Below, in pieces: positions 7,577-20,982 of a stretch of DNA of 64,000 nt. The notes under the pieces were generated by a model that did not search any database, was not told where the DNA came from, and worked only from the letters and a program-made list of their open reading frames with translations. The DNA comes from Serratia nematodiphila DZ0503SBS1 (lineage in GTDB: Bacteria; Pseudomonadota; Gammaproteobacteria; Enterobacterales; Enterobacteriaceae), in assembly GCF_000738675.1 (NCBI RefSeq), contig NZ_JPUX01000002.1, positions 248,001-312,000 of the forward strand, read 5' to 3'. The stretch's first letter is position 1. Each line of letters opens with the position of its first letter. Both the position numbers and the translations under genes were made by a program.

Positions 7577-8473
7577 ATGCACTCACCGTCCCGTGCGCGC
7601 TTGCCCAAGCTGAGCGCCATTCTGGCGTTCGAAACCGCCGCTCGCACCGGCAGCCTGGCCCGTGCGGCGGATGCGCTGGCGCTGACCGCCGCCGCCGTCA
7701 GCCAGCAGATCCGCCAGCTCGAACAACATCTGGGCATCACGCTGTTCATTCGTGCCAAAAGCGGCGTCACGCTGACCGAACAGGGCGCGGACTACCTGGC
7801 CTACGTGCAGGAGGCGTTTGAAACGCTGCGCGTGGCGCAGCAACACGTCGAACGCCAGCGCGGCAAACAGGCGCTGACGGTGTTCGCCCTGCCGGCGTTG
7901 GCCTCCAAGTGGCTGAACCCGGCGCTGGGCGACTGGCTGGCGCAGTGCCCCGACGGCGATCTGCGGCTGCACGCGACCCATGCGGCGGTCGATTTCGCCC
8001 ATTCGGCGGCGGATTTCGCCCTGTGCTTCGGCGATCAGGATTACCCGCTGCTGGAAAAGGTGCAGCTGTTTCAGGATCGGGTGCAGCCGGTATGCAGCCC
8101 GGCGCTGCGCGATCGCGGCGACTGGACGCAGCTGCCGCTGATCCACGTCGACTGGGGCAAGGAGAGCCAGTTTCTGCCGGGCTGGCACGAGTGGTTCACC
8201 GCCGCCGATCGGTCGCCGCCGCCGCGGCGCGGGCTGACCTATAACCTGACCTCGCTGGCCATCGACGCCGCCGTACAAGGGCGCGGGGTGCTGCTCGGCC
8301 AGCGGCGGCTGATCGCCCGTGAACTGGCGGAGGGCCGGCTGGTCACCCTGGCCGAACCGGCGCTGCCGCTCAGCAAACCCTACTACGTGGTTTACCCGCC
8401 GCGCACGCTGGAAAAACCCGGCGCAGCGGCGTTTCTGAGCTGGTTGCAGGCGCTGGCTCAGCACGCGGTATAA
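7577..8473 (+). CDS. LysR-family regulator (GcvA-like)
   Basis: A 298-residue LysR-type regulator: winged helix-turn-helix at residues 10-70 (GSLARAADALALTAAAVSQQ) and a periplasmic-binding-protein-like effector domain after residue 90. The N-terminal PKLSAILAFETAARTGSL is typical of the GcvA/AmpR branch. Divergent from the 2-oxoglutarate oxygenase, which is its probable target. Its 3' end overlaps the convergent SDR gene by 16 bases. Confidence 0.9.
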   Translation: MHSPSRARLPKLSAILAFETAARTGSLARAADALALTAAAVSQQIRQLEQHLGITLFIRAKSGVTLTEQGADYLAYVQEAFETLRVAQQHVERQRGKQALTVFALPALASKWLNPALGDWLAQCPDGDLRLHATHAAVDFAHSAADFALCFGDQDYPLLEKVQLFQDRVQPVCSPALRDRGDWTQLPLIHVDWGKESQFLPGWHEWFTAADRSPPPRRGLTYNLTSLAIDAAVQGRGVLLGQRRLIARELAEGRLVTLAEPALPLSKPYYVVYPPRTLEKPGAAAFLSWLQALAQHAV

Positions 8474-9209
8474 CCGCCGTCGATGCTGTAAAACGCGCCG
8501 GTGGTGAAACTGCTGTCGTCCGAAAGCAGGAAGGCCACCGTTTTCGCCACCTCTTCCCGCGTCGCCATCCTCCCCATCGGGTGCGAAGCGGCCATCTGCG
8601 CCCGCGCCGACGCCGGCAGTTCCCCCATCGCCGGCGTATCTACATAACCCGGCCCGACGGCGTTGACGCGCACGCCGCGCGTAGCGAATTCCAGCGCCGC
8701 CGAGCGCGTCAGGCCCAGCACGCCATGCTTGGCGGCGGTATAGGGCGCAATCCCGGCAATGCCCACCACGCCGTTGGCGGAAGAGAGGTTCACCACCGCC
8801 CCCCGCCGCCGGCGACGATCGCCGGCAGGCCGTACTTCATGCCGAAAAACGTGCCGCCCAGGCAGGTGGCGATCACCTCATGCCAATCTTCGACCGCGTA
8901 CCGATCGATATCCACCTCGTGCGGGCCGGTGATCCCGGCGTTGTTGACCAGCAGATGCAGCGCGCCGCAGCGCCGCACGATCTCTTCAATACCCTGCTGC
9001 ACCGACTGCGCGTCGCGCACGTCCATCCGCAACATCATCACCCGCCGGCCGTCGGGATCGAGCCGCGCGGCGGCGGCGGCGAGAGGCGCAGCATGGCGGC
9101 CGGTCATCACCACCGTGGCTCCGCGCCGAAACAGCTCGGCGGCGATCGCTTCGCCAATGCCGGTGGACGCGCCGGTCACCAGCGCCACCCGATGTTTGAA
9201 ATCTTGCAT
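8458..9209 (-). pseudogene. SDR-family oxidoreductase, frameshifted
   Basis: Two overlapping reading frames together make one short-chain dehydrogenase of about 250 residues. The first (start 9209) carries the Rossmann motif TGASTGIG and NNAG; the second carries the catalytic Ser (NLSSANG) and Tyr-x-x-x-Lys (YTAAK) and ends in a normal SDR tail. The frames switch at the six-C run 8799-8804 (G on the coding strand), where one extra base restores GGGGAVVNLSS. The enzyme would be an NAD(P)-dependent alcohol dehydrogenase or ketoreductase. Either the gene is broken or the run was miscounted in sequencing. Confidence 0.85.
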
Positions 9210-9514
9210 AGCCGTTCTCCTGCAAAGTTGAGTTCAAGGGGAACAGGCTAGCGCCGGCAAGTGACAGTTTGCGGCAGCAGTGATGCCCAACGCGGCGAGG
9301 AATAAAAGGAGTAATGCTTATCAATATTTTATCTATACGATGGAAGTAAATTGTATAACCATTTTATTTTCATCATTAAATGTGTAAGGCGCACCCACTC
9401 TGACGCCAAAACTCATTATAACTTTTTATATATTAGTTAGATTAAACCCCTATTTTCCCCGCTGTCACAAAACTGTCATAGATAAACGCATCTTAACTTT
9501 TCGGAGCATTTATC
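9210..9514. other. AT-rich intergenic region, Pho-box promoter
   Basis: A 305-base gap between the divergent SDR gene and the pyruvate-kinase-like gene. Apart from the Pho box at 9462-9479 it is AT-rich and holds no convincing gene. Confidence 0.6.
9462..9479 (+). promoter_or_regulatory. Pho box (PhoB site)
   Basis: CTGTCAC-AAAA-CTGTCAT is two 7-base direct repeats with a 4-base spacer, the exact architecture of the enterobacterial Pho box (CTGTCAT-N4-CTGTCAT/C). It ends 35 bases before the start of the pyruvate-kinase-like gene, so PhoB would act as activator. The site is plain in the sequence; regulation is inferred. Confidence 0.8.
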
Positions 9515-10948
9515 ATGGCAAAGACTCGCATTATCGCTACCATCGGCCCCGCCTCTCGCCACATCAACACGTTGGCAGCGCTGGAAAAAGCCGGCATGTC
9601 CGTCGCCCGATTGAACGGTTCGCACAACACGCTCGACTGGCATGCGGAAACCATCGCCCTGCTGCGTAAAACGTTGCCGGATACGCCGGTGCTGTTGGAC
9701 ATTCCCGGTAGAAAAATCCGCACATTGCAACTGAAACACGAACCCTCATTCACTAAAGGGCAAACGCTGATCCTCACGACCGATACCTCGCATAACGGGG
9801 AGGAAAAAGTCCCGGTGGGGTACGGCCGGTTGCATGAACGGCTGACGGTGGGCGATAAGGTTTTCGCCGATGATGGCACCCTCTCGTTTCAGGTCGTTAA
9901 CATCGTCGATCGGGACATCCACCTGCGGGCCGACATGGACGGCCAACTGAAAAGCCGCAAAGGCATCAATGTGCCTGGCATCGATCTCGGGCAGGCGCTG
10001 ATAACGGAGAAAGATCGCGACATGATCGCCTTCGCCAAAGCGCATCAAGTGGACTACATCGGCATAAGCTTCGTCGAAAGCGCGGCACACATCAACGCGA
10101 TCAGAACGCTGATCGGAGGCGATACGCCCCGCATCGTGGCGAAAGTGGAAAACAGCGGCGGCATAGAGCATCTGGAGGAAGTCATCGCCGCCGCCGACGT
10201 TATCATGATCGATCGCGGCGATCTGGCGGTGGAAACCTCGATCGACCGCGTTTCTCTCTACCAAAAACAGATCCTCCGAGCCGCCTCCCATGCGGGCAAA
10301 CCCACCATCGTGGCGACGGAATTGCTGCACAGCATGATAGAGAACCCGCTGCCAACCAAAGCGGAGGTCAGCGACATCACCAACGCGGTGCTGGATGGCG
10401 CCGCGGCGGTGATGCTCTCCGGTGAAACCGCCGTAGGCCGCTATCCTCTGGAGGCCGTTGCCCGTATCGCCAGCGTAGCCCATCAGGCGGAACAGCATTT
10501 AGCGCATGCGCCCCACTCATCCCCCCCTGCGCAGGTTGACGATATTCGACAGGCTGTCGGCGCCCTTATCCGCGCCTTGCCGATCTCCCGGGTGGTGGTG
10601 TTTTCTCGCACAGGTTACAGCGTGCGCATCGCCGCCATGGCCAACATCGGCCTCCCGATCGTCGCATTCGGCAACGATGCGGCGACGGTGCGCAGCTGGA
10701 ATATGCTGCCAGGCATCACCGGCCTGACATTGCCTCGGATCGATCTGACACAGCCGGAAACCGAACGTTTGGCTCTGAATGTCCTGTCAGACAATGGATT
10801 GATAAATCGGCACGATGTTTTGCTGCTGGTCAGCGCCCAGCAAGACAATCAGCATATCAGCGGGAATATTTTGCGCACGCTCAGCGCCGATGCCTACCTG
10901 CAATCTGACGCGGCGCGGGAACCTCACCGGAAAGAAGAGGTGGCCTGA
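9515..10948 (+). CDS. Divergent pyruvate kinase paralogue
   Basis: A 477-residue protein of full pyruvate-kinase length, expected to convert PEP and ADP to pyruvate and ATP. Most catalytic residues are present: Arg32, Asn34, Ser36, Asp62, Arg69, Lys210, Glu212, Asp236 and Thr268. The usual LDTKGPEIRT motif reads LDIPGRKIRT, so the potassium-binding Thr is Ile63 and the Glu that marks potassium-dependent enzymes (Glu117 in rabbit muscle) is Lys67. Lys here is characteristic of potassium-independent pyruvate kinases. MVARGDLG reads MIDRGDLA. GGAG precedes the ATG. Its stop overlaps the next start (TGATG), tying it to a TSUP and an AEC transporter. It is unlikely to be the housekeeping enzyme given the Pho box and divergence. 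Confidence 0.82.
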   Translation: MAKTRIIATIGPASRHINTLAALEKAGMSVARLNGSHNTLDWHAETIALLRKTLPDTPVLLDIPGRKIRTLQLKHEPSFTKGQTLILTTDTSHNGEEKVPVGYGRLHERLTVGDKVFADDGTLSFQVVNIVDRDIHLRADMDGQLKSRKGINVPGIDLGQALITEKDRDMIAFAKAHQVDYIGISFVESAAHINAIRTLIGGDTPRIVAKVENSGGIEHLEEVIAAADVIMIDRGDLAVETSIDRVSLYQKQILRAASHAGKPTIVATELLHSMIENPLPTKAEVSDITNAVLDGAAAVMLSGETAVGRYPLEAVARIASVAHQAEQHLAHAPHSSPPAQVDDIRQAVGALIRALPISRVVVFSRTGYSVRIAAMANIGLPIVAFGNDAATVRSWNMLPGITGLTLPRIDLTQPETERLALNVLSDNGLINRHDVLLLVSAQQDNQHISGNILRTLSADAYLQSDAAREPHRKEEVA

Positions 10949-11682
10949 TGGATAATCATGCGTTGTTCTATCTGGTGATTGCGCTATTTGCCGTGATCCA
11001 ATCGGTTTTCGGCATGGGCATCTTGGTGTTCGGTACACCGACGCTATTAATGCTGGGCGTTGATTTCTCCTCCGTACTTGGGCTACTGCTGCCGTCGTCG
11101 GTGCTGATCTCTCTGACGCAGACGCTTGGCGCCCGACGAATTGCTTTTCCCGCTCGCGAAAAGGTCAATATGCTGATTTGCGCCATTTTCGTCATTCTGG
11201 CGCTGAGCCTGGTCTTGCATTCGACGCTGAAGATGAATGTCGATCTGCTGGTGGGCGCCATCCTGCTGTTTTCCGCCTTGATGCGCTTTCGTCTGTCACT
11301 GCAGGAAACCGTGAAGCATTATCTCGGCAAACATCAGCGCGCTTATATCGCAGTCATGGGCCTGATACATGGCGTCACCAACATGGGTGGCGCCTTGCTG
11401 GCACTCTACGCTACCGCCAGCCATCGCGAGAAACTGGAGATAAGAACCACCGTCTCCCGTTATTACCTGATGTTCGGTTTAATCCAATTGGCCACGCTGG
11501 CCTGCATTAAATGGCAAGCCCTGAACCTCGACGGTTTCGCCGCGGCACCGCTGGCTCTGCTGGTGTATCTGGTCGTCGGCAATCTGCTGTTCAAGAGAAC
11601 CAGCGCTCCCGTTTATGAAAAAATGGTAACCGGCTTTATTGCCTTCTATGGCGTGGCCGTTCTCACTAAAGGCTATTTATAG
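10948..11682 (+). CDS. TSUP-family (TauE/SafE) membrane exporter
   Basis: A 244-residue integral membrane protein with about seven to eight helices in two repeats. The opening VFGMGILVFGTPTLLMLG and mid-protein GLIHGVTNMGGALLALYA are the paired glycine-rich motifs of the TauE/SafE (TSUP) family, which moves sulfonates, sulfite and other organic anions. The start codon overlaps the stop of the pyruvate-kinase-like gene by one base, implying translational coupling. The substrate is unknown; an organic anion linked to PEP/pyruvate is a contextual guess. Confidence 0.85.
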   Translation: MDNHALFYLVIALFAVIQSVFGMGILVFGTPTLLMLGVDFSSVLGLLLPSSVLISLTQTLGARRIAFPAREKVNMLICAIFVILALSLVLHSTLKMNVDLLVGAILLFSALMRFRLSLQETVKHYLGKHQRAYIAVMGLIHGVTNMGGALLALYATASHREKLEIRTTVSRYYLMFGLIQLATLACIKWQALNLDGFAAAPLALLVYLVVGNLLFKRTSAPVYEKMVTGFIAFYGVAVLTKGYL

Positions 11683-11689
11683 GCTCCCC

Positions 11690-12622
11690 ATGACGACGAC
11701 TCTCTTTTCTCTGATCCCGGTGATATTTTTAATCGCCATGGGATTCACTCTGCGGCACAAAAACCTGATCGATCGGGCTTTCTGGCTGCCCTGCGAGAAG
11801 CTGAACTACTTTTATCTCTTCCCGGCGCTGATGTTTATTCAGGTCGGCAAAGCCGACCTGAGCCAGTTTCCGGTACGGCCGATCGCCCTGTCGGTCCTGG
11901 GCGCCGTGTTGATCGGCGCCTTGTCGTTGTACCTCTGGCGAATCTGGCTAAAACAGCCCGGGCCGGTTTTCTCTTCCGTCATACAGGGCGCTCTGCGCCC
12001 CAATACCTACATCGGGGTTGCCGCAGCAGCGGCGACTTTCGGCCACACCGGCCTGACGGTGACCTCAATCAGCATCGCCGTCGCCATCCCGCTGTTGAAC
12101 GTGGCCTCGATTGTCATACTGATGCATTACGGCCAGGGCTCCCGCCCCGGCGGCAGACAGATCGCCAAAGCGCTGGGGAAAAACCCAGTGATCCTTTCGG
12201 TCTTGGCCGGTCTGGCCTTCAATGCCAGCGGCTGGTCGCTCGGCACGGCGCTGGAGAACATTCTCACCATTCTCGGCGGCGCCTCTCTGCCGTTGGGGTT
12301 GCTGGCGGTCGGCGCGGGGCTGGATATCAAGGCGGCGCGTACGGCACAGGGCCCCGTACTGCAATCGACCTTCGTCAAGTTACTGCTGGTACCGCTGTTG
12401 ACGCTGGGAATCGGCATCACCCTGGGCATCTCCGGCCCGGTGCTGGCGACTATCGTCCTGTTTAACGCCTTACCCTGTACACCTTCCGCCTACATCATGG
12501 CGAAACTGCTGGGCGGCGATCATCGCTTGTCGGCCGGTATCATCACGATCCAAACGTTGCTGGCGGCGGTCACCATTCCTGTTATTTTGCTGTTGACCCA
12601 GTTTTCAGCTCATCCAGCTTAA
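11690..12622 (+). CDS. AEC-family transporter (auxin efflux carrier-like)
   Basis: A 310-residue membrane protein with ten predicted helices and the two-repeat AEC layout; residues such as RPNTYIGVAAAAATFG and LPCTPSAYIMAKLLGGD are typical. Bacterial relatives include malonate and malate permeases. The ATG at 11690 is seven bases after the TSUP stop; an earlier in-frame start would overlap that gene. It closes the Pho-box operon and overlaps the convergent hydrolase gene by 41 bases. Organic-acid transport is the family-based expectation. Confidence 0.85.
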   Translation: MTTTLFSLIPVIFLIAMGFTLRHKNLIDRAFWLPCEKLNYFYLFPALMFIQVGKADLSQFPVRPIALSVLGAVLIGALSLYLWRIWLKQPGPVFSSVIQGALRPNTYIGVAAAAATFGHTGLTVTSISIAVAIPLLNVASIVILMHYGQGSRPGGRQIAKALGKNPVILSVLAGLAFNASGWSLGTALENILTILGGASLPLGLLAVGAGLDIKAARTAQGPVLQSTFVKLLLVPLLTLGIGITLGISGPVLATIVLFNALPCTPSAYIMAKLLGGDHRLSAGIITIQTLLAAVTIPVILLLTQFSAHPA

Positions 12623-13202
12623 GATGGGCCTCATACTTCCGCCACAACGCGTCGAACCAGCCGTCGTCTCCATGACGATCGTTGATGCGCTCGACCGCTT
12701 CCGCACACTGTCGGCGGGCCAAGGCCAACAGGCCGGCCTCGCCCGCCGATAAAACAGCCAATAAGCGCGCCATTTCCACCAGATAGTGACGGGCAAAGGA
12801 GACATCGTAATCGGTAATGTTTTTGCTGTTGTCAATCAAGTCGCACAGTTTGATGGTCTGCGCTTCCGCACAGGCCTGCGCGCTGTGCCGCAGATTGGCA
12901 TTTTTACGGTGCAGACGCTCACCGCCGTAGCTGCGAGGCTGCACGTCGGTCAACATTTCCACATAACGCTCGACCGTCGGACCGAATTCTCGCCGGATAT
13001 CCGCCAGGGTCACCGCCGTATCTTCTACCGTATCATGCAGCCAGGCAGCGGCGACCATTTCTGGCGTCGGCTTAGCCCGCCGCAGCAAATCCACCACCGC
13101 CGCTGGGTGCACGATATACGGCTCCCCGGTGAACTTGCGCCGCTGATTGCAGGCATGGTGAGCGTCATTGGCAAATCGCTGCGCTTTCAAGGTTAAATCC
13201 AT
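12582..13202 (-). CDS. HD-domain small alarmone hydrolase-like protein
   Basis: A 206-residue stand-alone HD phosphohydrolase resembling the hydrolase half of RelA/SpoT and metazoan MESH1. Metal-binding residues are visible: His32 (YIVHPAAVV), His56-Asp57, and the (p)ppGpp-hydrolase signature HDTVEDT at 56-62, with a later Asp in LCDLIDN. No synthetase, TGS or ACT domain is present. It would remove the 3'-pyrophosphate of (p)ppGpp, or act on NADPH as MESH1 also can. The C-terminus overlaps the convergent AEC gene. Confidence 0.8.
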   Translation of the reverse strand: MDLTLKAQRFANDAHHACNQRRKFTGEPYIVHPAAVVDLLRRAKPTPEMVAAAWLHDTVEDTAVTLADIRREFGPTVERYVEMLTDVQPRSYGGERLHRKNANLRHSAQACAEAQTIKLCDLIDNSKNITDYDVSFARHYLVEMARLLAVLSAGEAGLLALARRQCAEAVERINDRHGDDGWFDALWRKYEAHLKLDELKTGSTAK

Positions 13203-13330
13203 ACTTTCTCCTTATCCATATCGATTCAGTCTAACGGCAGCCATGCTGACATCTGAGTCGATTTGGTTATGAGTTATGCCGACAACGCAGCACGTAATGC
13301 GCTCACAAACGCCGCAAAGCCCGCTATTTT

Positions 13331-14125
13331 ATGCCTACTTTTTCTCATGCGAGACACCCTGTGGATACCCAACGCTACCTGCAGCATATCGGCTTTGCCG
13401 GCACCGCCCGCCCTGACCTCCCCACGTTGCAACAGCTGCACCATCGCCACATGCTGAGCGTCCCGTTCGAGAACCTGAGCATTATTTATCATCAGGGTAT
13501 TCAGCTGGCGCCCGAAGCGCTGTTCAGCAAGGTGGTCGAGCGTAACCGCGGCGGTTTCTGTTATGAGCTGAACACGCTGTTCGCCCTGCTGCTGCGAGAG
13601 ATCGGTTTCAAGGTGAGCTTCATCTCCGGCGAGATCCGCGCGCGCGACGGCCATTTCGGCCCACCCTACGATCATCTGGCGCTGCGGGTGGATCTGGCGG
13701 GGCAGGCCTGGCTGGTGGATGTCGGTTTCGGCGATTCCTTCCTGACGCCGCTGAAGATCGTCGTCGCCGAGCCGCAACCGCAGGCCAGCGGCACTTTCCA
13801 CCTGGAACGGGAAGGCGACTATTACCTGCTGGAGCGCCGCAACGGCGACCAACGCTCACATGCCAAAACGCTGTATCGCTTTACCGTTCAGCCGCGCGAG
13901 TTGCCTGAGTTCGACGAGATGTGCCGATTCCACAGCACCTCGCCGCAGTCGCACTTCACCCAGCGCCTGGTGTGTTCACGGCCGACGGAGCACGGCCGGG
14001 TGACCCTCAGCGACATGAAGCTGATCGTGACCGAAGATCACCAGCGCCACGAAACGACGTTGCATTCGGAAGAGGAACGGCGCGCCGCGCTGTGGCAGCA
14101 TTTCGCCATCGATTTGGAGCGTTGA
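13331..14125 (+). CDS. Arylamine N-acetyltransferase
   Basis: A 264-residue NAT-family enzyme that transfers acetyl from acetyl-CoA to arylamines, hydrazines or hydroxylamines. The cysteine-protease-like triad is complete: Cys77 in RGGFCYEL, His115 in YDHLALRV and Asp130 in LVDVGFGDS. The start is uncertain: ATG 13331 has no clear ribosome site, and GTG 13361 gives a length closer to the family. In NAT families close relatives sometimes release polyketide amides, but no such cluster is present. Confidence 0.88.
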   Translation: MPTFSHARHPVDTQRYLQHIGFAGTARPDLPTLQQLHHRHMLSVPFENLSIIYHQGIQLAPEALFSKVVERNRGGFCYELNTLFALLLREIGFKVSFISGEIRARDGHFGPPYDHLALRVDLAGQAWLVDVGFGDSFLTPLKIVVAEPQPQASGTFHLEREGDYYLLERRNGDQRSHAKTLYRFTVQPRELPEFDEMCRFHSTSPQSHFTQRLVCSRPTEHGRVTLSDMKLIVTEDHQRHETTLHSEEERRAALWQHFAIDLER

Positions 14126-14146: not shown

Positions 14147-14248
14147 ATTGCGATTCTGTTACACCGATTGCATAACCGCGCTTGGCTGATTGCCAGCACC
14201 GCGACGGCAGGCATCATAGGATCATGATTCGGCAACAGAGTGCGAAAA

Positions 14249-14878
14249 ATGATCCGTGTGATACTGGTGGATGACCATGTGGTGGTGCGCTCCGGCTTTG
14301 CGCAATTGCTCAGCCTCGAGGACGATCTCGACGTGGTGGGGCAATACAGCAGCGCGGCGGCGGCCTGGCCGGCATTGCTGCGCGACGACGTCAGCGTCGC
14401 GGTGATGGACATCGCCATGCCGGATGAAAACGGCCTGAGCCTGTTGAAACGCCTGCGGGCGCAAAAGCCGCAGTTTCGCGCGATCATCCTCAGTATCTAT
14501 GATACCCCGACCTTCGTACAGAGCGCACTGGATGCCGGCGCCAGCGGCTATCTGACCAAACGCTGCGGGCCGGAAGAACTGGTGCAGGCGGTGCGCTCCG
14601 TCGATATGGGCGGCCATTACCTGTGCGCCGACGCGCTGCGGGCGCTGCGCGGCGGCGAGCAGCCGGCCACGGCGCTGGAGGCGTTGACCCCGCGCGAGCG
14701 CGAGATCTTCGATCTGCTGGTCAAAGGCGACAGCGTAAAGGAGATCGCTTTCAAGCTCGATCTCAGCCATAAAACGGTGCACGTGCATCGCGCCAACGTC
14801 CTGGGCAAACTGCAGTGCAGCAGCACCATTGAACTGGTGCATTTCGCCCTCGACCATCAGCTGCTGGCGGGGCATTGA
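14249..14878 (+). CDS. uhpA: Response regulator UhpA
   Basis: A 209-residue NarL/FixJ-type regulator. The receiver domain (1-120) has phospho-acceptor Asp54 (VMDIAMPDE) and the conserved Lys in LTKRCG; the LuxR-type helix-turn-helix follows (LTPREREIF to KTVHVHRANV). The N-terminus VDDHVVVRSGFAQLLSLE matches UhpA closely. It activates sugar-phosphate uptake genes on phosphorylation by UhpB. The stop overlaps the uhpB start by one base. GTG at 14240 is an alternative start. Confidence 0.9.
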   Translation: MIRVILVDDHVVVRSGFAQLLSLEDDLDVVGQYSSAAAAWPALLRDDVSVAVMDIAMPDENGLSLLKRLRAQKPQFRAIILSIYDTPTFVQSALDAGASGYLTKRCGPEELVQAVRSVDMGGHYLCADALRALRGGEQPATALEALTPREREIFDLLVKGDSVKEIAFKLDLSHKTVHVHRANVLGKLQCSSTIELVHFALDHQLLAGH

Positions 14879-16419
14879 TGTCGCCCCGCTTCCGGCCCTG
14901 GGTTATCTCGCTGTTTATCCTGTTGGCCTGGGGGAGCGGCTGGCTGATGCTGTGGACGCTCGGTTTCTACCTGACCCACAACGGCAATCAGGCGGCGCTG
15001 TTTCTGCCTCACGGCGTCTATCTCGCGCTGCTGATCCTGCTGGCGCGCCGCTATTGGCCCGCCCTGATAATACCGCCGGTGCTGCTGCTGTTCTGGCTGC
15101 ACGGCGAACGCCTGCTGAGCGGCTACAGCCTGCTGGCCGCGCCGTTCATCACCCTGCTCCCGGCCGCGCTCGCACAGCGATTCTGGCGCCGTTTTCCACT
15201 CTACTGGCAGCGGCTGACGCTGCTGCTGGCCGCAGTGACCGCCGCCTCGCTGCTCAATACCGCCCTGCTTGCGCCTTTCGCGCACAGCCCGGCGATGCTG
15301 CTCGGCCTGGCGTCATTTACCGGCGGCGTCTTGCTGACCCCGTTCGTCTACCTGATTTTTGAATTTCTGCGCCAGCAACACCGCTACCATCTGCTGGGGC
15401 TGGACACCAGCAACCCGCCGCTGCGCGCGTCCTTAATCATCTGGTGCAGCCTGTTTTTCGTTATCGGCATCGGCACCCAGATGGTGCTGTCGCCGGAAAT
15501 CGAACGCCTGCTGCTGATCGTGGTGTTTTTGCCGAACGTGGTGATGGCGTGGAAGTTCGGCTGGCAGGGCGGCGTGCTGTCCGGCCTGCTCGGCAGCATG
15601 ATGATCACCATCGCGCGGCAGGTCGGCGTGGGGTTCGGCAATCTGATCGAGCTGGAAATCTTTCTGGCGACGCAGGCGCTGCTCGGCATCGGTCTGGGCA
15701 TCGCCATCAGCCGTCAGCAGCACCTGGCGCAAAACCTGCACCACTATCGCCGACGCCTGGAAGAAGAGTTGGCGGCGCGGCGGGCGTTGACCGAAAAACT
15801 GATCCACACCGAAGAAGACACGCGAAAGAACCTGGCGCGCGAGCTGCACGATGAAATCGGCCAGAACATCACCGCGATTCAAATTCAGTCGCAGCTGGTC
15901 AAACGGGCGCGCGATCCGGCGCAAACCCAGGCCGCCGCGAACCAGATAGCCGATCTCGCCCGGCGCATACATCACTCCACGCGCCAGCTGCTGCGCCAGC
16001 TGCGCCCGCCCGCGCTGGACGAGCTGGCGTTCAAAGACGCGCTTCACCACCTGCTGAATGAATTCGCCTTCAGCGAACGGGGCATCCGTTGCCGTTTCGA
16101 CTACCGGCTCATCAACACGCCCGCCGGCGAGACGGTGCGTTTTACCCTCTACCGACTGCTGCAAGAGCTGCTCAACAACGTGTGCAAACACGCCGAAGCC
16201 AGCGAAGTCGCCATCGTTTTGTATCAACAGGGGGCACTTTTGCACCTCGAGGTGCGGGACAACGGCATCGGCATCCGGGCGGACAAGGTACCCGGCCTCG
16301 GCATTCAGGGGATGCGCGAACGGGTCAGCGCGCTCGGCGGCGAACTGACGCTGGACACACAGCGCGGCACGCGGGTAATTGTTAACCTGCCCACAAATTT
16401 GCAACAAACCGCCGACTAA
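14878..16419 (+). CDS. uhpB: Sensor histidine kinase UhpB
   Basis: A 513-residue inner-membrane kinase. An N-terminal MASE1-type block of about eight helices (1-285) leads into a HisKA_3 dimerisation helix with phospho-acceptor His324 (ARELHDEIGQ) and a HATPase domain (DNGIGIRAD, GLGIQGMRER). UhpB works with the membrane receptor UhpC to sense external glucose-6-phosphate and to phosphorylate UhpA. Start ATG 14878 is coupled to the uhpA stop. Confidence 0.9.
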   Translation: MSPRFRPWVISLFILLAWGSGWLMLWTLGFYLTHNGNQAALFLPHGVYLALLILLARRYWPALIIPPVLLLFWLHGERLLSGYSLLAAPFITLLPAALAQRFWRRFPLYWQRLTLLLAAVTAASLLNTALLAPFAHSPAMLLGLASFTGGVLLTPFVYLIFEFLRQQHRYHLLGLDTSNPPLRASLIIWCSLFFVIGIGTQMVLSPEIERLLLIVVFLPNVVMAWKFGWQGGVLSGLLGSMMITIARQVGVGFGNLIELEIFLATQALLGIGLGIAISRQQHLAQNLHHYRRRLEEELAARRALTEKLIHTEEDTRKNLARELHDEIGQNITAIQIQSQLVKRARDPAQTQAAANQIADLARRIHHSTRQLLRQLRPPALDELAFKDALHHLLNEFAFSERGIRCRFDYRLINTPAGETVRFTLYRLLQELLNNVCKHAEASEVAIVLYQQGALLHLEVRDNGIGIRADKVPGLGIQGMRERVSALGGELTLDTQRGTRVIVNLPTNLQQTAD

Positions 16420-16426
16420 CTAGGAA

Positions 16427-16450
16427 AAAGTCTTAGCCAGTCCGGACTTT
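16427..16450. promoter_or_regulatory. Inverted repeat before uhpC-afuABC
   Basis: AAAGTC-N12-GACTTT encloses a second palindrome AGTCCGGACT (16439-16448) in the 84-base gap between uhpB and uhpC. It could be a UhpA target controlling uhpC-afuABC separately from uhpAB; this is inference from position. Confidence 0.35.
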
Positions 16451-16503
16451 CTCTCATCCCCTTTCCCTTTCACCTTCTTATAGTCATCACCAGGGAGACG
16501 GCT

Positions 16504-17808
16504 ATGCAGACACGCTCGGCATCTGAAATCGATCATCGTTACCGCGCGCTGCGCCCGCGACTGCTGCTGTACATGGTCATCGGCTACGCCGCCTTTTACC
16601 TGACGCGCAAAAGCGTGAATTACGTGCTGCCGGCGCTGCAAACGGATTTGGGGCTGGATAAAGGGGACATCGGCCTGCTCGGCTCGCTGTTTTACCTGAG
16701 CTACGGCCTGTCGAAATTCAGCGCCGGATTGTGGCACGACGGCCACGGGCAGCGCAGGTTTATGGGGATCGGCCTGTTCGCCACCGGCGTGCTGAACGTG
16801 GCGTTCGCCTTCGGCGAATCGCTGACGCTGCTGTTGGCGGTCTGGGCGCTGAACGGCTTCTTTCAGGGCTGGGGCTGGCCGCCCTGCGCGCGGCTGCTGA
16901 CCCACTGGTATTCGCGCAACGAGCGCGGCTTCTGGTGGGGCTGCTGGAATATGTCGATCAACCTCGGCGGCGCGATCGTGCCGCTGATCAGCGCCTTCGC
17001 CGCCCAGCGCTGGGGCTGGCAGGCGGCGATGTTGATCCCGGGGGCCGTCAGCATGGCGTTGGGCCTCTGGCTCACGCGGCGGCTGACAGGCACGCCGCAG
17101 GAAGAAGGCCTGCCGTCGGTCGGCCGGTGGCGCCACGATCCGCTGGAGCTGCGCCAGGAACAGCAAAGCCCGCCAATGGGGCTGTGGCGGATGTTGCGCA
17201 CCACGATGCTGAAGAACCCGATGATCTGGCTGCTGGGCGTCTCTTACGTGCTGGTCTACCTGATCCGCATTGCGTTGAACGACTGGGGCAATCTGTGGCT
17301 GACGGAAAGCCACGGCGTCAACCTGCTCAGCGCCAACGCGACGGTGATGCTGTTCGAGATAGGCGGCCTGCTCGGCGCGCTGTTCGCCGGCTGGGGCTCG
17401 GATGTGCTGTTCGGCGGGCAGCGCGCGCCGATGATTTTGCTGTTCACGCTCGGGCTGATGGTTTCCGTCGCCGCGCTGTGGCTGGCGCCGGTGCATCACT
17501 ACGCGCTGCTGGCGGGCTGTTTCTTTACGGTGGGCTTTTTTGTCTTCGGCCCACAGATGTTGATTGGCCTCGCCGCCGTGGAGTGCGGGCACAAAGGCGC
17601 CGCGGGCTCCATCACCGGCTTTCTCGGCCTGTTCGCCTACCTGGGGGCGGCGCTGGCGGGCTGGCCGCTGTCGCGGGTCATCGAAGGCTACGGCTGGTCG
17701 GGCATGTTCAGTTTGCTGTCCATCGCCGCCGTTCTTATGGGTTTATTGCTGATGCCGCTGCTGATGGCGAGCGTTACCACCTCTACCGAGAGAAGGATAA
17801 AACAATGA
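16504..17808 (+). CDS. uhpC: MFS sugar-phosphate receptor UhpC
   Basis: A 434-residue major-facilitator protein with twelve helices from the organophosphate:phosphate antiporter family. Motifs include FYLTRKSVNYVLPALQ in helix 1 and WYSRNERGFWWG after helix 4. In the Uhp system this protein is the glucose-6-phosphate sensor partner of UhpB; UhpT-like transport is the alternative, but the place after uhpAB favours UhpC. Its stop overlaps the afuA start by four bases (ATGA), linking sensing directly to the ABC importer. Confidence 0.85.
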   Translation: MQTRSASEIDHRYRALRPRLLLYMVIGYAAFYLTRKSVNYVLPALQTDLGLDKGDIGLLGSLFYLSYGLSKFSAGLWHDGHGQRRFMGIGLFATGVLNVAFAFGESLTLLLAVWALNGFFQGWGWPPCARLLTHWYSRNERGFWWGCWNMSINLGGAIVPLISAFAAQRWGWQAAMLIPGAVSMALGLWLTRRLTGTPQEEGLPSVGRWRHDPLELRQEQQSPPMGLWRMLRTTMLKNPMIWLLGVSYVLVYLIRIALNDWGNLWLTESHGVNLLSANATVMLFEIGGLLGALFAGWGSDVLFGGQRAPMILLFTLGLMVSVAALWLAPVHHYALLAGCFFTVGFFVFGPQMLIGLAAVECGHKGAAGSITGFLGLFAYLGAALAGWPLSRVIEGYGWSGMFSLLSIAAVLMGLLLMPLLMASVTTSTERRIKQ

Positions 17809-18836
17809 AAAAAACGTGGGTCACTACCCTGATAGCGTCCGGCATCGCGCTGGCGACTCTGAGCGGCGGCGCGCACGCCAAGGGCCGCCTGGTGGTCTAC
17901 TGCAGCGCCACCAATGAAATGTGCGAAGCGGAAACCAAAGCCTTCGGCGAGAAATATGACGTGAAAACCTCGTTCATCCGCAACGGATCCGGCAGCACGC
18001 TGGCGAAAGTGGATGCCGAGAAGAAGAACCCGCAGGCGGACGTCTGGTACGGCGGCACCCTCGATCCGCAATCCCAGGCCGGTGAAATGGGGCTGCTGCA
18101 GCCGTACAAATCGCCGAACCTCGAACAGGTGATGACGCAATTCCGCGATCCGGCCAAGCTGAAAGGCAACTACTCCTCGGCGGTCTACGTCGGCATTCTC
18201 GGCTTTGGCGTCAACACCCAGCGCCTGAAAGAGAAAAACCTGCCGGTGCCAAAATGCTGGAAAGACCTGACCAAGCCGGAATACAAGGGCGAGATTCAAA
18301 TCGCCGATCCGCAAAGCTCCGGCACCGCCTACACCGCGCTGGCGACCTTTGCCCAGCTGTGGGGAGACGATCAGGCGTTCGATTACCTCAAGCAGCTGAA
18401 CGCCAACGTCTCGCAGTACACCAAGTCCGGCATTGCCCCGGCGCGCAACGCCGCCCGCGGTGAAACGGCGATCGGCATCGGTTTCCTGCATGACTACTCG
18501 CTCGAAAAGGAACAGGGCGCGCCGCTGGAGCTGATCTCGCCTTGCGAAGGCACCGGCTATGAAATCGGCGGCGTCAGCATCCTCAAAGGCGCGCGCAACC
18601 TCGACAACGCCAAGCTGTTCGTGGATTGGGTGCTGTCGAAAGAGGCGCAGGAGCTGGCGTGGAAGCAAGGCAAATCCTATCAGATCCTGACCAACACCAC
18701 CGCCGATACCTCGCCGAACTCGCTGAAGCTCGACGACCTGAAGCTGATCAACTACGACATGGACAAGTACGGTTCGACCGAGGTCCGCAAGGCGCTGATC
18801 AACAAATGGGTCAGCGAAGTCAAGATGGGTAAATAA
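17805..18836 (+). CDS. afuA: Periplasmic sugar-phosphate-binding protein AfuA
   Basis: A 343-residue periplasmic binding protein with a clear signal peptide cut after GGAHA (about residue 25). It is of the ferric-binding-protein fold (VVYCSATNEMCEAETKAF, IRNGSGSTLAKV), historically called iron-binding, but AfuA homologues bind glucose-6- and fructose-6-phosphate. Adjacency and start/stop overlap with uhpC support sugar phosphate rather than iron. The start was set by the ATGA overlap; the upstream in-frame reading is a shadow of uhpC. Confidence 0.9.
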   Translation: MKKTWVTTLIASGIALATLSGGAHAKGRLVVYCSATNEMCEAETKAFGEKYDVKTSFIRNGSGSTLAKVDAEKKNPQADVWYGGTLDPQSQAGEMGLLQPYKSPNLEQVMTQFRDPAKLKGNYSSAVYVGILGFGVNTQRLKEKNLPVPKCWKDLTKPEYKGEIQIADPQSSGTAYTALATFAQLWGDDQAFDYLKQLNANVSQYTKSGIAPARNAARGETAIGIGFLHDYSLEKEQGAPLELISPCEGTGYEIGGVSILKGARNLDNAKLFVDWVLSKEAQELAWKQGKSYQILTNTTADTSPNSLKLDDLKLINYDMDKYGSTEVRKALINKWVSEVKMGK

Positions 18837-18903
18837 GCCCACATTCTGCGCCTGTTGCCGGGTAAGCCTCACGGTTTGCCCGGCCTGAACATCCGGGAAA
18901 CTT

Positions 18904-20982
18904 ATGTCACATACACATGCACTCCATCTCGTGAAAAAACGAGATGCGATATTCCTTTGGGTTTTGCTCGGCTGGCTGGCGTTCGCCCTGCTGCCGAGCT
19001 GGAGCCTGGATTACGGCCTGCTGGAGTCCACCGGCGAAGAGATCCTCGCGGCCTACGGCTGGTCAAATCGCAATATCAGCTGGCTTTGGTGCCTGCTGCC
19101 GAGCCTGCTGCTGCTGCGCCCTTACGCTGCGGCGGGCGGTGAACGGCGGCGGCGCCACGCGTTCGACGCCGGCTGGGCGCTGCTGTGCATGGCCTTTATC
19201 GTCGTCAGCGCCACGCTGGCGGGACGCGGTTTAGGCTACGCCACCCTGGTGCAGTTGACCGCGCTGGGCGCCATCATGACGTTGGCGCTGACCCGCCTCG
19301 ACTGGCTGGGCGGCGACCGCTTCGTTATCGGCGCGCTGGTCACCATCGTGGCGCTGATCGGCGTCTTCATCGTCTGGCCGAGCATCGCGATTTTCATTCC
19401 GATGTTCACCGACCAGACGGGCGCCTTCGCGCCGCTGGCGTTTATGAACGTGCTGTCGCAGGCGCACATCGTCCAGGTGATCCTCAACTCCATCGCCCTG
19501 TCGATCGCGGTAGGCGCCGGCTGCACCTTCTTCGGCCTGGTGCTGGCGATTTACACCACCCGCATCGCCAGGCGCAGCGCCATTATCGGCCGCATCTTCT
19601 CCATCCTGCCCATCGTCACGCCGCCGTTCGTCGTCGGCCTGGGCGTCACGCTGATGATGGGGCGCTCCGGCTACGTGACCGAGTGGATGGTGGCCTGGTT
19701 CGGCCTGACCAACACCAACTGGCTGTACGGCTTTACCGGCATCTGGCTGGCGCAGGTGCTGGCGTTCACCCCGATGGCGTTCATGATCCTCGACGGCGCG
19801 ATCAAGACCATTCATCCTTCGCTGGAAGAGGCCTCCTACACCCTGCGCGCCAGCCGTTGGCAAACCTTTAACGGCGTGTTCGTGCCGCTGCTGAAACCGG
19901 CGCTGGCCAACGCGTTTCTGATCGTGGTGGTGCAATCGCTGGCCGACTTCAGCAACCCGCTGGTGCTCGGCGGCAACTTCGACGTGCTGGCGACGCAAAT
20001 CTATTTTTACATCACCGGTTCGCAGCTCGATTATCAGGCCGCCAGCACCCTCGGCGCCTTCTTGCTGCTGTTCTCGCTGCTGGTGTTCTGCATCCAGTAT
20101 ATGTGGATCGGCAAGCGTTCCTACGTCACCGTGTCCGGCAAATCCTATCGCGGCGACGTACAGCCGCTGCCGGTCACGCTGGTGTGGAGCGTGATCGCGC
20201 TGCTGGCGGTGTGGGTAGCCTTTAACGCCCTGCTTTACGGCAGCATTTTCTACGGCAGTTTCACCGTCAACTGGGGGGTGGATTACACGCTGACGCTGGA
20301 TAACTTCATCAAGCTGTTCGGCCAGGGCATGAGCGACGGCGCGTGGCCTTCGCTGCTCGACACGCTGCTGTACGCCGGGATCGCCGCGCCGATCACCGCC
20401 GCGTTCGGCCTGTTGATCGCCTGGATCGTGGTGCGCCAGCAGTTCAAGGGCAAAAAGACCATCGAGTTCACCACCATGCTGTGCTTTGCGGTGCCGGGCA
20501 CCGTGGCGGGCGTCTCTTACATTCTCGCCTTTAACGGCGCGCCGGTGTACCTCACCGGCACGGCCGCCATCGTGATTATCTCGATGGTGATGCGCAACGT
20601 GCCGGTGGGCATTCGCGCCGGGATCGCCGGGCTGGGCCAGATAGACAAATCGCTGGACGAAGCCTCGCTCAGCCTGCGCGCCGGCTCGCTGCGCACCATC
20701 ACGCACATCCTGCTGCCGCTGCTGCGCCCGGCGATCCTGTCGGCGCTGATCTACAGCTTCGTGCGCGCCATCACCACCGTCAGCGCCATCGTCTTCCTGG
20801 TCACCCCCGATACCCGCGTGGCCACCGCCTACATCCTCAACCGCGTGGAAGACGGCGAATACGGCGTGGCGATCGCCTACGGTTCAATTCTGATCGTGGT
20901 GATGCTGGCGATTATTTTCCTCTTTGACTGGCTGATCGGCGAGGCACGCATCTCCCGTTCAAAAGCCAAAAACCAGGCGTAA
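18904..20982 (+). CDS. afuB: Fused ABC permease AfuB
   Basis: A 692-residue inner-membrane protein containing two complete binding-protein-dependent permease modules. The coupling-loop motifs appear twice: [15 protein letters not shown] in the first half and [15 protein letters not shown] in the second. It forms the translocation path for sugar phosphates delivered by AfuA. The gene follows afuA by 67 bases and its stop overlaps an ATG ahead of afuC. Confidence 0.92.

Follow-up and report, generated by a model that had tools for sequence, protein, structure and literature searches.

The window analysed here is a stretch of 64,000 nucleotides from Serratia nematodiphila DZ0503SBS1 (G000:C2:248001-312000), whose genome of 5.22 Mb is in two contigs. 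It contains a 4.0-kb segment (9284..13279) with a Pho box, a three-gene operon on the + strand and a fourth gene convergent to it. The Pho box, CTGTCACAAAACTGTCAT (9462..9479, + strand), has no mismatches to CTGTCAYNNNNCTGTCAY and lies 35 bases ahead of the ATG of a pyruvate kinase gene (PK; 9515..10948, 477 amino acids). This is followed on the same strand by genes for a TSUP carrier (TauE/SafE, PF01925; 10948..11682, 244 amino acids) and an AEC-type carrier (PF03547; 11690..12622, 310 amino acids). The PK stop and the TSUP ATG (10948) overlap by one base (TGATG), and the AEC ATG is seven bases past the TSUP stop. The fourth gene, on the - strand (12582..13202), encodes a 206-amino-acid HD_4 protein resembling the SpoT and MESH1 hydrolases.

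All of the Pfam matches of the operon proteins are above the curated cut-offs, with PK at 306.4 bits, PK_C at 35.9 (cut-off 28), TauE at 43.8 (cut-off 32.6) and Mem_trans at 71 (cut-off 25.7); the narrower TIGR00946 model failed for the AEC protein (52.2 against 246). A preliminary description of this DNA had named the same box, families and spacing, and these were verified. It had also taken the three genes to be a unit, an order that recurs in every related locus described below, although it missed the convergent HD gene in the same insert.

A conserved Pho box ahead of the operon

In a genome-wide scan the site at 9462-9479 is the only one without a mismatch. Eight sites, including the window's own, have at most one mismatch, and a reversed control pattern gave none; of the remaining seven, two lie ahead of a PstS-like gene and one ahead of a UgpB-like gene, with the open reading frames (ORFs) judged by eye. 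When the 150 upstream bases were dinucleotide-shuffled 2000 times, no version matched as well as the window box. Like the PhoB regulon operons pstSCAB-phoU and ugp, the window operon has tandem 7-bp repeats with a 4-bp spacer upstream of its first gene, and boxes that nearly match precede the PstS-like and UgpB-like genes in the same genome. It differs from those operons in encoding a glycolytic enzyme together with two carboxylate-type carriers.

The kinase belongs to a clade from ten loci (the window, G009, G235, G190, two from Pseudomonas, and those of Kosakonia sacchari, Enterobacter sichuanensis, Pantoea deserta and Jeongeupia naejangsanensis), and PK, TSUP and AEC occur in identical order and strand in all ten. 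Upstream sequence is available for nine, and in eight of these a box with 0 to 3 mismatches is located 48-53 bases before the PK ATG. Shuffles equalling the box numbered 0 of 2000 in five loci, 1 and 2 of 2000 in two others, and 28 of 2000 in Pseudomonas GM50. The box itself has a mean pairwise identity of 0.85, against 0.42 in the preceding 40 bases and 0.37 in the following 28 (seven loci, G009 and Jeongeupia being dropped, aligned on the best match, which favours the box). Among 134 upstream regions of the nine loci, defined with a crude ORF caller and including those of antisense ORFs, there are six sites with two or fewer mismatches, every one of them before this PK; the list excludes Kosakonia, where a longer start was called, and GM50, whose box has three mismatches.

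A chance Pho box was rejected on the genome-wide rank, the shuffles and the relatives. The preliminary description had made conservation of the box and gene order a check on its proposal, and both are conserved. Because the gene order is kept in 10/10 loci and the box in 8/9, phosphate control of the kinase and its co-expression with two carriers are likely; PhoB regulation of the operon is well supported by comparison, with binding and induction predicted from it. We also note a one-mismatch Pho box elsewhere in the genome (L159:3868-3885; G000:C1:3152867), with a divergent ORF, by eye FosA-like (glyoxalase-type), starting ∼100 bases away from it.

The kinase subfamily and its relatives

The genome holds two further full-length pyruvate kinases, and the window enzyme, earlier called divergent, is indeed neither PykA nor PykF. 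It passes the general pyruvate kinase equivalog model TIGR01064 (398 against 306.4) and shares its catalytic segments with PykF and PykA, but it fails both the PykF equivalog PRK09206 (288 against 686) and the PykA-type subfamily model PRK05826 (400 against 432). In a tree, 32 kinases of its subfamily split from 18 canonical kinases at 100/100 (alignment rows canL036 and canL052 were wrongly picked ORFs, and the tree was built on re-extracted kinases). Subfamily signatures are DRGDL (32/32; ARGDL in the canonical enzymes shown), PGxK(I/V)R (32/32) and NGSH (29/32; canonical NFSH). The catalytic segments checked are kept in 32/32 subfamily rows, from which the kinase is predicted to convert phosphoenolpyruvate (PEP) and ADP to pyruvate and ATP. 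Its match to the C-terminal domain is weak, the tail is unlike that of canonical enzymes, and the domain is missing in two Komagataeibacter copies. Since this effector region is poorly conserved, the kinase is probably independent of phosphorylated activators; fructose 1,6-bisphosphate, AMP, ribose 5-phosphate, glucose 6-phosphate and G3P are among the in vitro regulators of pyruvate kinases given in one account (PMC11834443), and each of these is a phosphorylated compound.

The nearest relatives of the kinase are mainly alphaproteobacterial, with a subfamily PK in 15 of the 385 genomes searched. Genes for adenosine 5'-phosphosulfate (APS) kinase (cysC) and ATP sulfurylase (sat) stand directly before PK in 14 of these 15 genomes and sat only in the 15th. 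The pair also precedes PK in five of five further alphaproteobacterial loci, which gives 18 distinct loci with both genes after one probable duplicate (L014 and L188 are probably one contig; as places, L005 is L123 and L119 is L124). Pfam confirms the neighbour families in L124 and L012. The 68 control loci, which have canonical PKs, show no match to cysC, sat or the other tested neighbours, and the ten operon loci show no cysC, sat or tested sulfotransferases in the DNA covered, both results coming from a few single-protein queries that may not have caught distant homologues. In the gammaproteobacterial relative L125, the cysC, sat and sulfotransferase neighbours are all lacking.

Sulfotransferase domains adjoin PK in L124 and in the planctomycete locus L015 (Pfam), with relatives of the L124 sulfotransferase in L186 and, weakly, L180, and an annotated sulfotransferase gene stands directly before a barrel-only subfamily PK in two Komagataeibacter plasmids (L161:805-2644 and L162:5148-6990). 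The order in L124 is sulfotransferase-cysC-sat-PK-TSUP, and its TSUP belongs to the same subfamily as that of the window, which it matches at 128 bits; the best of 30 other TSUP loci compared reaches 43. These 30 are drawn from 58 matches in eleven genomes; the other 28 rows, among them low-scoring ones, had no locus of their own and entered the comparison only where another locus contained them. Four alphaproteobacterial loci (L016:6418-7272, L182, L187 and L189) encode, shortly after PK, proteins of one family that are 37-45% alike and match no Pfam model; the family was considered as a sulfotransferase and dropped for want of a Pfam name.

The kinases of the cysC-sat-PK operons are 43-56% identical to that of the window (one long-branch row omitted), whereas the window unit has no cysC or sat and carries instead a Pho box and an AEC gene. 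No Pho box was found in eight 300-base leaders of the alphaproteobacterial operons (best 4-6 mismatches). As the operon kinases nest within the cysC-sat kinase set in the tree, the Pho and carrier unit looks derived from a sulfate-activation setting, although the grouping of all ten as a single clade has a support of only 91/67.

Spread of the unit and the convergent putative hydrolase gene

In four close congeners (G012, G021, G001 and G024; 94-96% identity) position 9283 is joined directly to 13280/13281, and the 4.0-kb segment is thus an insert, or was cleanly lost there. Three more congeners were compared: G003 also lacks the segment, its flanks being about 60 bases apart, and G010 and G029 hold other DNA in the slot. 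The four insert genes have a GC content of 0.53-0.59 and a third-position GC of 0.66-0.76; the latter is 0.86-0.87 in three of four native neighbours measured and 0.77 in the NAT gene. The insert has no terminal repeats beyond a shared 7-mer.

The unit is rare, being present in 2 of 30 genomes of the genus, 3 of 392 in a draw from the family (the window's own included) and 1 of 298 in a draw from Pseudomonas; E. coli has no DNA match to it, near or distant. A search of 72,556 plasmid records gave no match for AEC at 1e-60 or for TSUP at 1e-12, and the PK matches were Komagataeibacter relatives and ordinary kinases only. Outside the genus, identity to the window proteins is 61-66% for PK and 55-63% for TSUP; AEC, at 73-80%, is the best conserved of the unit's proteins. 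The two Pseudomonas kinases cluster in the PK tree with those of G235, G009 and the window (97/87) within an otherwise enteric set of nine (100/100), a placement that points to horizontal transfer. The scattered distribution, a tree at odds with species kinship, the clean empty sites and the lower GC together point to horizontal spread of the unit.

The product of the HD gene matches HD_4 at 57.8 (cut-off 27.2) and has the HDxxED motif; its best PDB sequence matches are SpoT/RelA hydrolases, and MESH1 is also matched. These features it shares with the small alarmone hydrolases MESH1 and XccSAH, from which its linkage to a Pho operon, confined to Enterobacterales carriers, sets it apart. A bacterial enzyme of this kind is described as hydrolysing (p)ppGpp, pppApp and NADPH (PMC9765508). 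The 3' end of the gene overlaps that of AEC by 41 bases in the window, and a convergent arrangement with 3' overlaps of 14-77 bases is found in 7/7 Enterobacterales carriers. This arrangement speaks against the HD gene being an unrelated neighbour, as does the empty site, which in four congeners lacks exactly the operon and HD, and for these reasons we count it as part of the unit in Enterobacterales. The link is strong, albeit not absolute: beside the operon in Pseudomonas and Jeongeupia the gene is missing, and in four further congeners a 76-77% HD copy lies next to the same NAT gene without the operon. No Pho box precedes the HD gene (best 5-6 mismatches). We note that the scan listed no + strand terminator between AEC and the HD gene (12582-12622), so that transcription driven from the Pho box could continue antisense into the HD gene.

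The slot between the LysR and NAT genes (window 7577-14125; L151-L154, L221-L227) is variable in the genus, being empty, occupied by this insert, or holding other genes (flippase-like and, by eye, FAD oxidoreductase-like). Adjoining the insert is a native cluster (14240-20982) that resembles organophosphate sensing and uptake. It includes a receptor of the UhpC family (590 against 564), proteins like UhpA and UhpB that stay below the cut-off, an ABC permease whose nearest model is PhnU2, likewise below cut-off, and what is by eye a periplasmic binding protein (17805-18836).

A proposed role in phosphate starvation: ATP formation and carboxylate export

Pyruvate kinase forms ATP without free inorganic phosphate (Pi), unlike GAPDH and ATP synthase. 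The explanation we favour, although tentatively and with confidence a little short of even, is that the unit is a horizontally spread PhoB target which, when phosphate is scarce, would keep PEP turning over to pyruvate and ATP forming without Pi, while a carboxylate is exported. Under starvation PhoB would bind the box and drive PK-TSUP-AEC; the kinase, running without the phosphorylated activators whose levels should then drop, would make ATP without free Pi and keep glycolysis turning, and one or both carriers would pass the excess out of the cell, in the simplest case as pyruvate or a carboxylate derived from it. Since PK is the only enzyme of the operon, we infer that the carriers handle pyruvate or a close carboxylate, and overflow and export are plausible. 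In enterics, the accompanying hydrolase may adjust alarmone or NADPH levels. The exported acid could, speculatively, release mineral phosphate, as a possible consequence only; for soil bacteria two papers stress gluconic acid in the parts consulted (PMC5082522, PMC3831634). The preliminary description's overall interpretation is supported in part: phosphate control together with two carriers has become likely. The picture is altered by the tie of the kinase subfamily, elsewhere, to sulfate activation and by the fourth gene in the inserted unit.

Several observations weigh against the favoured explanation. The relatives of the kinase stand in a sulfate-activation context, and a TSUP gene follows PK in 1 of 18 alphaproteobacterial loci (L124; two of the loci have little DNA past PK). 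Two residue changes in the kinase, A to D before RGDL and F to G in NFSH, might alter its substrate. The TSUP and AEC families are broad, with no substrate readable from sequence; TSUP-type carriers of unknown substrate are also reported among sigma-54-dependent transport operons in a Desulfovibrio study (PMC4641369). In Jeongeupia the operon is kept without a Pho box upstream of PK (best 7 mismatches), and the eight boxes represent about six independent cases, because likeness is 99% between the window and G009 kinases and 93% between the two from Pseudomonas. Finally, a simple scan of 9200-13350 gave no + strand sigma-70-like promoter, which would make the -10 element weak or atypical.

A related account, possible although rather doubtful, is that a mobile phosphate-starvation module carries a PK from a sulfate-activation setting, rewired to PhoB and yielding ATP from PEP without Pi or phosphorylated activators. 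TSUP and AEC would be carboxylate carriers dedicated to it, with TSUP as pyruvate exporter and AEC as either a second exporter or an importer of phospho-carboxylates whose phosphate the kinase strips. The main rival is a sulfur-linked unit: the kinase regenerates ATP for sulfate activation (APS and its 3'-phosphorylated form PAPS), presumably the role of its relatives in the cysC-sat-PK operons, TSUP and perhaps AEC carries sulfate, sulfite or a sulfonate, and sulfated or sulfonated products replace phosphorylated ones in phosphate starvation. It draws on the cysC-sat genes before the alphaproteobacterial kinases, on the sulfotransferase genes adjoining PK in L124, L015 and the two plasmids, and on the shared TSUP subfamily in L124. 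Such sulfur genes were found in 0/10 operon loci, however, in the DNA covered and with a few single-protein queries, and AEC is confined to those loci. The PK-TSUP pair, moreover, recurs with different partners, albeit in one alphaproteobacterial locus only, which suits a carrier for a PK substrate or product better than a sulfate carrier, and on balance we regard the sulfur-linked unit as unlikely.

Scavenging of phospho-carboxylates, in which AEC imports PEP or similar, PK passes its phosphate to ADP and TSUP exports pyruvate, would account for PhoB control of a kinase rather than a phosphatase, for the presence of two carriers and for AEC being the most conserved protein. PEP is scarce outside cells, however, we know of no AEC member that carries phosphorylated acids, and this scheme seems to us very improbable. 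That the box is inert or a chance match and the operon not phosphate-regulated has the Jeongeupia locus in its favour, as well as the report that 36 of 65 PhoB-bound regions in E. coli are intragenic, most of those being inert (PMC10294691, in the part seen). It is hardly to be expected of a box that is the sole perfect site in its genome and holds the same position in 8/9 loci, where the upstream DNA is otherwise unlike and kinases outside the genus are 64-66% identical to the window's, and we give it next to no weight.

Pho regulons are mostly viewed as phosphate-acquisition programmes. The operon in the window is of the Pho type but unusually composed, and no description of its kinase subfamily was found. 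In keeping with the earlier remark that no such system was known, the open-licence papers, as far as their text was covered, gave no description of a PK-TSUP-AEC operon or of cysC-sat-PK operons. Neither 'pyk' nor 'pyruvate' appears in the main text covered of the E. coli PhoB mapping paper (PMC10294691), nor 'pyruvate' in the portion covered of a Serratia PhoBR study (PMC2695467), and a Pantoea phosphate-solubilisation study, in the portion covered, names pyruvate kinase once, in a gene list within a legend (PMC12889132). If the favoured explanation is true, a conserved mobile PhoB target at the last glycolytic step would couple phosphate starvation directly to the flux of central carbon and to the release of carboxylates in bacteria associated with plants and soil. 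The unit also suggests candidate substrates for two poorly mapped carrier families, and the occurrence of one kinase subfamily in two contexts, with sulfate activation and with a Pho box and carriers, offers a testable case of enzyme re-use between sulfur and phosphorus physiology.

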